Assembly: GCA_034521575.1 (NCBI GenBank)
Contig: JAXHMJ010000005.1
Span: 372,001-436,000, forward strand
Direction of reading: 5' to 3'
Length of the DNA stretch: 64,000 bases
Origin: a candidate division KSB1 bacterium
GTDB taxonomy: Bacteria; Zhuqueibacterota; Zhuqueibacteria; Residuimicrobiales; Krinioviventaceae
In this document: positions 50,257 through 57,747 of the stretch, piece after piece
Numbering within the stretch: the stretch's first letter is position 1
How the letters are laid out: every line of letters starts with the position of its first letter
Translations under genes and position numbers: made by a program
The notes under the pieces: generated by a model
What the model was told of the DNA's origin: nothing
Databases searched by the model: none
What the model saw: only the letters and a program-made list of their open reading frames with translations

Positions 50257-50453
50257 ATCCAAAATGAAGAGTTCGAATCTTCTCCCCGACCAGAACCGAT
50301 TTCAAAGAAACCTTGGCTCTTTTCAAGATAAGCATAATACACGGATGACACAGGTACACACGAATTTACGCAGATAAAACATATTACGACCTCACCTTTT
50401 GTATAAAATAATATCCAAATCCCCCCTCTCTGATGTGAATCAGCATCATTGCA
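50257..50453. other. intergenic region with tRNA-3'-end-like fragment and repeat phrase
   Basis: At 50266-50290 the sequence AGAGTTCGAATCT, then CTCC..CCGAC, closely matches the T-arm and 3' acceptor strand of the tRNA-Pro at 55402. A weak hairpin (GAACCGATTTC / GAAACCTTGGCTC) ending in TTTT follows, much like the tRNA-terminator unit further right. At 50338-50378 an ACACGGATGACAC phrase recurs near 56294. No gene is seen. Confidence 0.4.
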
Positions 50454-50665: not shown

Positions 50666-50890
50666 ATGAATAGTTCAACCATTACAAAAAAGGGACAGAT
50701 TACCATACCCAAAAAGCTGCGGGATGAATTTGGAATTGAACCTCACGACAAGGTGGTATTTGTCCGGCGCGGCGATGTTTTGGTACTAAAACCGGTCAAA
50801 GATATCTATTCAGTCCGGGGTGCTGTTAGAGTAAACAAAATTCAGGATTTCAACAAAATCAGAAGATACGGTACGCAAGTCAAATGCTGA
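50666..50890 (+). CDS. AbrB/MazE-type DNA-binding antitoxin
   Basis: 74 residues. The swapped-hairpin AbrB fold is clear in STITKKGQITIPKKLRDEFGI, followed by HDKVVFVRRGDVLVLKP. It probably binds its own promoter and neutralises the PIN toxin encoded next. The stop overlaps an ATG of the toxin frame (ATGCTGA), so translation is likely coupled. TTGGAG precedes the ATG. Confidence 0.85.
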   Translation: MNSSTITKKGQITIPKKLRDEFGIEPHDKVVFVRRGDVLVLKPVKDIYSVRGAVRVNKIQDFNKIRRYGTQVKC

Positions 50891-50901
50891 GCGGATTGCA
50901 G

Positions 50902-51438
50902 ATGAATAGAATTTTTATTGATACCAATCTGTTTCTCAGATATATAACCAATGATGTGCCCGAACAAGCGGAATATTTTGAACGTCTTCTGAATCATGCC
51001 CATAATGGCAGCATTTTATTAATGACCAACACGCTTGTGATTGCCGAGATTGTTTGGACACTCAAATCCTATTATGCTTTTTCAAAGCAGCAAATTGACA
51101 AGACCGTCAGTTCGATTGTGGCATCAAACGCGATAGAGATACCGGAGCGTCAAATTCTTCTTCAGGCACTGGAAAATTTTAATACACTGAATATTGACTT
51201 TACAGATGCCTACATTGGCTCCTGGATGCAAGACCGCGGTATTTCTGAGATATATACGCTGAATGTCAAAGATTTCAGACGTATTTCGGGAATTCGGATT
51301 GCAGATATACCGGAATGTCCCCGGGAGTTGAAGCACTTTCGTTTAAAAGATGAATCAGTCTTTCCAATTCTTCCTCTGTGGGTTTTTGCCCTCGAAGCGT
51401 GCGGAAAAAGACAGGCGGTTTTTCAACAATCATGTTAG
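50902..51438 (+). CDS. PIN-domain toxin (VapC-like) with an unusual C-terminal tail
   Basis: 179 residues from the ATG at 50902 (MNRIFIDTNLFLRYI), where PIN proteins usually begin; an in-frame ATG at 50884 overlaps the antitoxin. Acidic residues of the RNase centre are seen in FIDTN, VIAEIVWTL and NIDFTDAYIG. The PIN fold ends near IADIPE. The last ~40 residues (CPRELKHFRL onward) are not typical and may follow a sequence error or fusion with a remnant, since the opposite strand is also open there. It likely cuts RNA when freed from the AbrB-type partner. Confidence 0.78.
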   Translation: MNRIFIDTNLFLRYITNDVPEQAEYFERLLNHAHNGSILLMTNTLVIAEIVWTLKSYYAFSKQQIDKTVSSIVASNAIEIPERQILLQALENFNTLNIDFTDAYIGSWMQDRGISEIYTLNVKDFRRISGIRIADIPECPRELKHFRLKDESVFPILPLWVFALEACGKRQAVFQQSC

Positions 51439-55280: not shown

Positions 55281-55401
55281 CTTTACAATAACTTTTTAAA
55301 CATAAGGTCTGTTTGTTCAATCCACAATCCGCTTGACAATCAATTAAATTTGCCGTATATTAACAGACTTTTGTGCAAAGTCCTTTCTCAGCACTCAATT
55401 A

Positions 55402-55476
55402 CGGGGTGTAGCGCAGCCCGGTTAGCGCGCCTGCTTTGGGAGCAGGAAGTCGAGAGTTCGAATCTCTCCACCCCGA
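55402..55476 (+). tRNA. tRNA-Pro (UGG)
   Basis: 75 bases. The acceptor CGGGGTG pairs with CACCCCG, the D-arm contains AGCGCAGCCCGGTTAGCGC, the anticodon stem is CCTGC/GCAGG with loop TTTGGGA (anticodon TGG), and the T-arm is GAGAG-TTCGAAT-CTCTC. CCA is not encoded. It is followed by an intrinsic terminator and by the tRNA-derived array. Confidence 0.95.
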
Positions 55477-55488
55477 CTTGTTGAAAAT

Positions 55489-55517
55489 GCCAGTAGACAA
55501 TTTACTGGCTTTTTTTT
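55489..55517 (+). terminator. intrinsic terminator of tRNA-Pro
   Basis: GCCAGTA / TACTGGC, a 7-bp stem with a 7-base loop, followed by eight T, 12 bases after the tRNA end. The same hairpin, with identical flank, recurs at the far end of the array (about 56243-56271). Confidence 0.9.
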
Positions 55518-55525
55518 ATTTTGGC

Positions 55526-56271
55526 GTCCGACAAGCGCGTTCCGATGCATCGGAAAAGTCGAGAGTGCGAATCTCTCCACCCCGACGCGTAACAACAAGC
55601 CAGTTTATTCACACTGGCTTTTTTTTATCATCTGTCCGACAAGCGCGTTCCGATGCATCGGAAAAGTCCAGAGTGCGAATCTCTCCACCCCGACGCGTAA
55701 CAACAAGCCAGTTTATTCACACTGGCTTTTTTTTATCATCTGTCCGACAAGCGCGTTCCGATGCATCGGAAAAGTCCAAGTGCGAATCTCTCCACCCGAC
55801 GCGTAACAACAAGCCAGTTTATTCACACTGGCTTTTTTTTATCATCTGTCCGACAAGCGCGTTCCGATGCATCGGAAAAGTCCAGAGTGCGAATCTCTCC
55901 ACCCCGACGCGTAACAACAAGCCAGTTTATTCACACTGGCTTTTTTTTATCATCTGTCCGACAAGCGCGTTCCGATGCATCGGAAAAGTCCAGAGTGCGA
56001 ATCTCTCCACCCGACGCGTAACAACAAGCCAGTTTATTCACACTGGCTTTTTTTTATCATCTGTCCGACAAGCGCATTCCGATGCATCGGAAAAGTCCAG
56101 AGTGCGAATCTCTCCACCCCGACGCGTAACAACAAGCCAGTTTATTCACACTGGCTTTTTTTTATCATCTGTCCGACAAGCGCGTTCCGATGCATCGGAA
56201 AAGTCCAGAGTGCGAATCTCTCCACCCCGACTTGTTGAAAATGCCAGTAGACAATTTACTGGCTTTTTTTT
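55526..56271 (+). repeat. seven-copy tandem array of tRNA-Pro-derived units with terminators
   Basis: Units begin at 55526, 55634, 55742, 55848, 55956, 56063 and 56171 (period 106-108 bp). Each holds GTCCGACAAGCGCG, a 16-base palindrome TTCCGATGCATCGGAA in place of the anticodon arm, AAGTC, a T-arm-like AGAG-TGCGAAT-CTCT and the acceptor end CCACCCCGAC. A hairpin AGCCAGT / ACTGGCT and eight T follow. The 5' half of the tRNA is missing. Copies are nearly identical, with single-base losses in the third and fifth. The last unit ends with the same terminator as the true tRNA. Open reading frames through it are by-products of the repeat. Confidence 0.92.
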
Positions 56272-56376
56272 GCTCTTTTCGAACCGGGCATGGAACCCGG
56301 ATGACACTGATACACGCAGAGAGCACCCGACCATTCGTGTCGTCCGCGTCATGCGTCGTCTTTTGAATCTTCCGGT

Positions 56377-57277: not shown

Positions 57278-57460
57278 ATGTTGACTAAAAATGCTGTAAG
57301 GCAATCAATTGACAATCTTCCTGATTCATTTACAATTGATGAGCTTATTGAACAATTAATATTTGTAGAAAAGATTGAAGAAGGCATTAGACAATCGGAT
57401 GAAGGTAAAACTATTTCAAACGATGATGTGAAAAATATGATTGAGAAATGGTCAAGTTAG
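57278..57460 (+). CDS. antitoxin partner of ParE-like toxin
   Basis: 60 residues from MLTKNAVRQSI. The short helical region FTIDELIEQLIFVEKIEEG and the acidic C-terminus (DEGKTISNDDVKNMIEKW) are typical of small antitoxins that pair with RelE/ParE toxins. The toxin frame begins 13 bases before its stop. An earlier ATG (57215) is unlikely. Confidence 0.75.
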   Translation: MLTKNAVRQSIDNLPDSFTIDELIEQLIFVEKIEEGIRQSDEGKTISNDDVKNMIEKWSS

Positions 57461-57747
57461 TTTGGACTGAATTATCAATAGAAGATTTAAAAGAAATCTT
57501 TGACTACATAGCAAAAGATTCTGTGCGATATGCGTCAATCACAGTGAATAAAATCTACAATCGAGCACAAGATATTATTGACAATCCTTATGTTGGACGG
57601 GTAGTTCCAGAAATAAATATAAAAATCATCAGAGAAGTGATTTCTGGAAATTATCGGATTGTTTACAAAATAATTAATGAATTTCAAGTTGATATTTTAC
57701 GAGTTTATCATTCAGCAAGATTATTAAAAGCTGATAGATTGAGATAA
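57448..57747 (+). CDS. RelE/ParE-family toxin
   Basis: 99 residues. WTELSIEDLKEIFDYIAKDS, NPYVGRVVPEI, REVISGNYRIVYKI and DILRVYHSARLL are the standard blocks of ParE/RelE toxins. The overlap with the antitoxin gene indicates a type II module. ParE members poison gyrase and RelE members cut mRNA; which applies cannot be read here. Very AT-rich. Confidence 0.88.
   Translation: MVKLVWTELSIEDLKEIFDYIAKDSVRYASITVNKIYNRAQDIIDNPYVGRVVPEINIKIIREVISGNYRIVYKIINEFQVDILRVYHSARLLKADRLR

Follow-up and report, generated by a model that had tools for sequence, protein, structure and literature searches.

Organisation of the tRNA-Pro locus

Seven tandem repeat units lie directly 3' of a tRNA-Pro(TGG) gene, and in the same orientation, in the window, by which we mean the whole 64-kb stretch of DNA analysed here; the source genome comprises 5.26 Mb in five contigs. 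The features of the locus are as follows.

50262..50292, + strand: remnant resembling the 3' end of tRNA-Pro, directly 3' of rdgB
55333..55361, + strand: promoter-like site TTGACA-17-TATATT, 5' of tRNA-Pro, with 11 of 12 consensus positions matched
55402..55476, + strand: tRNA-Pro(TGG), the parent gene (Aragorn; Rfam, 69.2 bits)
55489..55517, + strand: T1, the intrinsic terminator of tRNA-Pro, GCCAGT...ACTGGC followed by T8
55526..55626, + strand: unit 1, with the hairpin at 55540-55555, the tRNA 3' block to 55585 and then terminator T2
55634..55734, + strand: unit 2
55742..55840, + strand: unit 3, tRNA-like part shorter
55848..55948, + strand: unit 4
55956..56055, + strand: unit 5, CCCC minus one C
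56063..56163, + strand: unit 6, GCGCA replacing GCGCG ahead of the hairpin
56171..56271, + strand: unit 7, ending with a copy of T1 and abutting unique downstream sequence

A preliminary description of this DNA had reported seven units of about 108 bp behind tRNA-Pro, and these are confirmed both by the positions at which the palindrome TTCCGATGCATCGGAA starts (55540, 55648, 55756, 55862, 55970, 56077 and 56185; n = 7) and by TRF (score 1384, 97% matches, 6.8 copies). Successive unit lengths are 108, 108, 106, 108, 107 and 108 bp, followed by the last unit. Besides the seven array copies, no perfect palindrome of 16 bp occurs in the window, and eight terminator-like sites are found at the array vs 1.7 expected from shuffles, while no promoter-like site comparable to that of tRNA-Pro could be found in units 2-7. 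An open frame crosses the array, yet the units of 106-107 bp shift this frame and a coding repeat was rejected. An assembly artefact is unlikely, since the array lies in a contig of 2.6 Mb and units 1, 3, 5, 6 and 7 each carry private differences. One C is missing from the CCCC run in units 3 and 5, and unit 3 is shorter still; these losses may be sequencing errors, and because a change from CCCC to CCC resembles a homopolymer error, the true copies may be even more alike. The near-identity of the copies supports the earlier proposal of recent expansion or homogenisation.

Alignment of the units with tRNA-Pro reveals that each is a copy of the tRNA cut at its 5' side and running from the D-loop onward, beginning in the D-arm with GTCCGACAAGCGCG where the tRNA has GCCCGGTTAGCGCG. 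From the tRNA they keep the D-loop with the 3' D-strand, the variable loop, the greater part of the T-arm and the entire 3' end; neither the 5' acceptor strand nor the 5' D-strand is present. Thus, of the earlier definition of a unit as a tRNA 3' half plus a terminator, the terminator stands in each unit, but the copy starts at the D-loop and not at the anticodon. As had been described, TTCCGATGCATCGGAA occupies the place of the anticodon arm in all seven units, with tRNA sequence resuming at the variable loop, and the T-loop TTC is changed to TGC in every copy: position 55 is G in all units and T in the tRNA, so that the loop reads TGCGAAT in 7/7 units and TTCGAAT in the parent. The tRNA-like part of each unit ends with the tail CGAATCTCTCCACCCCGA, which matches the final 18 nt of tRNA-Pro exactly in five of the seven units and is interrupted by one missing C in the other two. 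Unit 1 has the GTCGAGAG of the tRNA, where units 2-7 have GTCCAGAG. Terminator T2 ends units 1-6 and a T1 copy ends unit 7; T1 and T2 differ over much of their sequence and have the GCCAGT/ACTGGC stem and the T-run in common.

Aragorn and Rfam call a single tRNA-Pro and no tRNA in any unit, none of which has a complete cloverleaf, in agreement with the earlier statement that these are not spare tRNAs. A further proposal, that the array is a decoy for tRNA-processing enzymes, found no support, as no unit has the 5' acceptor strand and position 55 is G throughout. When compared with shuffled sequences, the tRNA-like part without its terminator folds no better than the shuffles (z of -0.5 to -1.2), and whole units reach a z of only -2.3.

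Source genome and relatives

A search for the unit elsewhere in the source genome found no further copy, and exact matches to the palindrome are likewise limited to the array. A REP or other dispersed palindromic repeat is thereby ruled out, the palindrome and the unit being confined to one place. Other resemblances were also discarded: Rfam matches to MicC are weak and due to chance, as is the likeness of T2 to a stretch near an rRNA operon, and a viral origin of the palindrome was rejected, the five IMG/VR matches being at chance level and none of them tRNA-half-like.

The genome does contain a second array, 3' of tRNA-Arg(TCT) on contig 3 (L013 1501-1860; G000:C3:49553). It consists of two degenerate tRNA copies, altered at the 5' side and with a period of 136 bp, the first of which has the same terminator as the tRNA; there is no hairpin at the anticodon position. 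None of the other tRNA loci checked in the source genome has such an array.

In three relatives (G008, G013 and G019) the gene order is rdgB-tRNA-Pro, and at that place the window has the remnant listed above. With a remnant behind rdgB and the intact tRNA-Pro 5.1 kb downstream, the locus has been rearranged. The region is flanked by toxin-antitoxin pairs on either side, a MazE-like antitoxin with a PIN toxin at 50666-51438 and, at 57278-57747, a ParE-family toxin preceded by a small ORF. Positions 50305-50370, after the tRNA remnant, resemble positions 56270-56325, after the array (GCTCTTTTC...CGGATGACAC), perhaps as members of a small repeat family or through an old duplication.

The tRNA-Pro array unit is absent from 60 relatives, where the only matches are tRNA 3' ends, which suggests that the array is young or short-lived. 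Among order-level relatives, G010 has one decayed copy, from the D-loop onward and with a terminator, 3' of tRNA-Pro; G020 has one unit 3' of tRNA-Arg(TCT) with the hairpin TCCGCC...GGCGGA at the anticodon place; and G019 has tandem tRNA-Pro-like copies with a 137-bp period at a contig edge (L255 1-420; G019:C336), probably another array of this kind cut by the assembly. Such units therefore come and go within the order. Conservation in relatives, on which the preliminary description would have judged the array, is thus lacking for the exact array; similarly built units are nevertheless found again within the order and, as discussed below, across phyla.

Distribution of similar arrays and the hairpin at the anticodon position

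A pattern of two T-arms, separated by a T-run and too near each other to leave room for a complete tRNA, was scanned against 84,980 species genomes, and at least 118 loci were found where fewer than one would be expected by chance according to our own arithmetic. Among the matches listed, the first T-arm lies in a tRNA and the second does not in 76/146, and 24/146 are two complete tRNAs. A stricter scan yielded at least 65 arrays with at least 105 units from many phyla, at least 20 of the arrays having two or more units; the array count is a lower bound, as the scans used one T-arm sequence. Among the matches listed, arrays occur in Flavobacterium and other Bacteroidota, in Alphaproteobacteria and in Caldisericaceae, among others, and their parent tRNAs belong to many different families. 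The units are regularly spaced at 90-136 bp. A terminator-like hairpin with a T-run is present in 55/103 units of 65 arrays from other genomes, compared with 8/390 random places in the same loci; hairpins and terminators were scored by simple criteria, and in about half of the units elsewhere the simple test did not detect a terminator. Rfam found no family beyond tRNA on the window or on 18 array loci. A class-wide pattern search returned two matches, of which one is due to chance and the other consists of two complete tRNAs, with a pattern that would miss both arrays of the source genome. The T-arm pattern also matches 21 viral contigs. An origin of the units by reverse transcription was considered, since they end at the transcript end, and was dropped because copied stretches elsewhere extend beyond the T-run.

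Repeated tRNA tails might also be read as relics or decoys of attachment sites, with tRNA 3' ends duplicated by tyrosine integrases and the palindrome serving as a recombinase core site. Such 3' ends are standard integration targets (PMC9897764), and the array has both a tRNA-Pro remnant and toxin-antitoxin genes in its vicinity. Nevertheless, no tyrosine-integrase gene is present near the tRNA-Pro or the tRNA-Arg array, integrase-like ORFs occur in 5/117 array loci, which is about background by our estimate, the spacing is regular both here (108 bp) and elsewhere, and the arrays follow many tRNA families. The hairpin loops, mostly of 3-5 nt, would also be unlike overlap regions of 7-8 bp. We rejected attachment sites of integrative elements for the window array and regard this origin as highly improbable.

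A perfect hairpin with a stem of at least 6 was found within 45 nt 5' of the T-arm in 91/156 non-tRNA T-arms among the matches listed. Leaving out the tRNA-Cys loci of Flavobacteriaceae, it is present in 36/98 units, where dinucleotide shuffles predict 3.4%, and in 29/65 loci vs 3.6 expected. Its most frequent position is exactly 8 nt 5' of the T-arm, which is that of the anticodon arm; the hairpin thus recurs at this position far above chance. In an alignment of hairpins from 13 loci including the window, 90/90 cells pair, and at five of the seven stem pairs both partners vary; as the 13 rows were selected for having a hairpin at that place, it is the spread of stem sequences and not the paired percentage that is independent evidence. 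The wide distribution of these arrays and the replacement of the anticodon arm by a hairpin seem to be undescribed in the open-access papers searched.

In the Flavobacteriaceae, a unit 3' of tRNA-Cys is kept in 24 species of several genera, its AATTTTT...AAAAATT hairpin and spacing persisting while its copy number ranges from 1 to 15 across the Flavobacterium species counted. Paired changes are several in the terminator of tRNA-Cys itself and a few in the unit hairpin. Flavobacterium fryxellicola (L131 797-2320) has 15 units of ~90 bp after tRNA-Cys, some of them with extra GC-rich hairpins inserted 3' of the T-arm, and in a tRNA-Met array (L152 1474-1640) some units have a second hairpin inside the T-loop.

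These observations bear on the main rival to the reading that we favour below, namely that the arrays are neutral debris: a tRNA 3' end and terminator duplicated in tandem by chance, amplified by slippage or unequal crossing-over and tolerated because of its position behind a terminator, the hairpins being a by-product of fold-back synthesis. The absence of the array from close relatives, the variable copy number in Flavobacterium and the 5' truncation and partial decay of the units are consistent with such an origin. However, a hairpin that returns to the same position across unrelated tRNAs and phyla, far more often than expected by chance and with paired changes, the persistence of the Flavobacteriaceae tRNA-Cys unit and the retention of terminators argue against it, and we consider debris possible but rather unlikely. 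Hairpin-type arrays might even form a distinct, phylum-spanning class of non-coding RNA element, a truncated tRNA copy with a fixed-position hairpin (often TCCCGA/TCGGGA) for an anticodon arm. Selection would then keep these elements downstream of tRNA genes for the sake of their read-through RNA, which would bind a conserved partner or control the ends of the tRNA transcript. We regard this more speculative reading as rather unlikely.

A plausible role and comparison with known tRNA-linked repeats

In E. coli, the little-studied tRNA-linked repeats (TLRs) have been known since 1978 and include the tyrT/V repeats with rttR (Egan and Landy 1978; Rudd 1999; cited in PMC8144298). They are defined by 18-19 bp at the 3' side of the repeat that exactly match the 3' end of the gene they follow (PMC8144298). 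Judged by its sequence, the window array is a TLR of the E. coli kind: it has the position that characterises TLRs, directly behind its parent and in the same orientation, and the same script that finds 19 nt of identity at 178, 356 and 534 in tyrT/V finds 18 nt in the window. TLRs are also co-transcribed with their parent gene; in the window the promoter-like site lies 5' of tRNA-Pro, with none found in units 2-7. The preliminary description had called tyrT a loose analogue; the relationship holds, but tyrT is the founding member of the family into which the array fits.

We hypothesize that the locus is a seven-copy TLR array whose terminators catch read-through and insulate what lies downstream, with small RNAs as a secondary product and copy number set by unequal recombination, and we regard this as the probable explanation. 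Its support comes from the 18-nt tail identity, a layout like that of rrnB and the stem and T-run common to T1 and T2; from the excess of terminators in units of other genomes, the above-chance hairpin at the anticodon position and the stem changes on both sides; and from the second array at tRNA-Arg(TCT) and the single units in order-level relatives. The absence of the array from 60 relatives, the weak folding z, the units elsewhere without a terminator and the hairpin-less tRNA-Arg array count against it. A polymerase that passes T1 would meet up to seven more terminators in series, and the product of read-through would be a short and probably unstable RNA in which the hairpin is followed by a T-arm-like hairpin and the terminator. 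The array would thus mainly shield downstream genes from the strong tRNA promoter, small RNAs being a side product of read-through, as has been demonstrated for rrA, rrB and rrF of E. coli. With its hairpin, the truncated copy can probably fold alone, neither pairing with the tRNA nor posing as one, while unequal recombination would raise and lower the copy number and keep the units alike. Most likely, then, the units would be backstop terminators from which short hairpin RNAs are released only on read-through; terminator insulation and short tRNA-like RNAs, both suggested at the outset, are each possible and mutually compatible.

In a rival reading, the array would be a source of regulatory small RNAs or sponges, which read-through and cleavage by nucleases would set free to bind RNAs or proteins. 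There are precedents in 3'ETS-leuZ and in rrA, rrB and rrF, three TLRs of rrn operons. Each of these three is flanked by a pair of terminators and arises when T1 is read through, and they bind Hfq and CsrA (PMC8144298); the terminator closing each unit, the multiple near-identical copies and the conserved Flavobacteriaceae unit also fit. On the other hand, only the tRNA-derived part and the hairpin are common across taxa, units 2-7 have no promoter within them, and the 19 TLRs in E. coli tRNA operons have no known function (PMC8144298), which makes this reading improbable.

TLRs in Bacteroidota, Alphaproteobacteria, Caldisericaceae and others, together with their recurrent architecture, offer material for comparison by which debris, terminator back-up and small-RNA function can be told apart. 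They also caution against annotating repeated tRNA tails behind tRNA genes as integration scars by default.

The TLRs of E. coli tyrT/V and the window array are alike in lying directly 3' of a tRNA gene, in tandem, with a tRNA tail of 18-19 nt closing each repeat. They differ in unit size (178 bp in tyrT/V and 108 bp in the window), and the window array further departs from E. coli TLRs in that its tRNA-derived part extends back to the D-loop, a hairpin stands in for the anticodon arm, every unit is closed by a terminator of its own, there are seven copies instead of one to five, and CCA is not encoded. The location of the units between terminators is that of the small RNAs of the rrA/rrB/rrF type, and E. 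coli rrnB, read directly, has the order 5S-T1-rrB-5S tail-T2. Both kinds of locus thus run from parent gene to T1, unit, copy of the parent's 3' end and T2, although rrA, rrB and rrF have a 5S rRNA parent, are single copies and bind Hfq and CsrA, whereas the window array has a tRNA parent and is known from sequence. The 3'ETS-leuZ sponge, as cited in PMC8144298, likewise comes from the 3' side of a tRNA transcript, but it is not a repeat and, as far as cited, has no copy of a tRNA 3' end.
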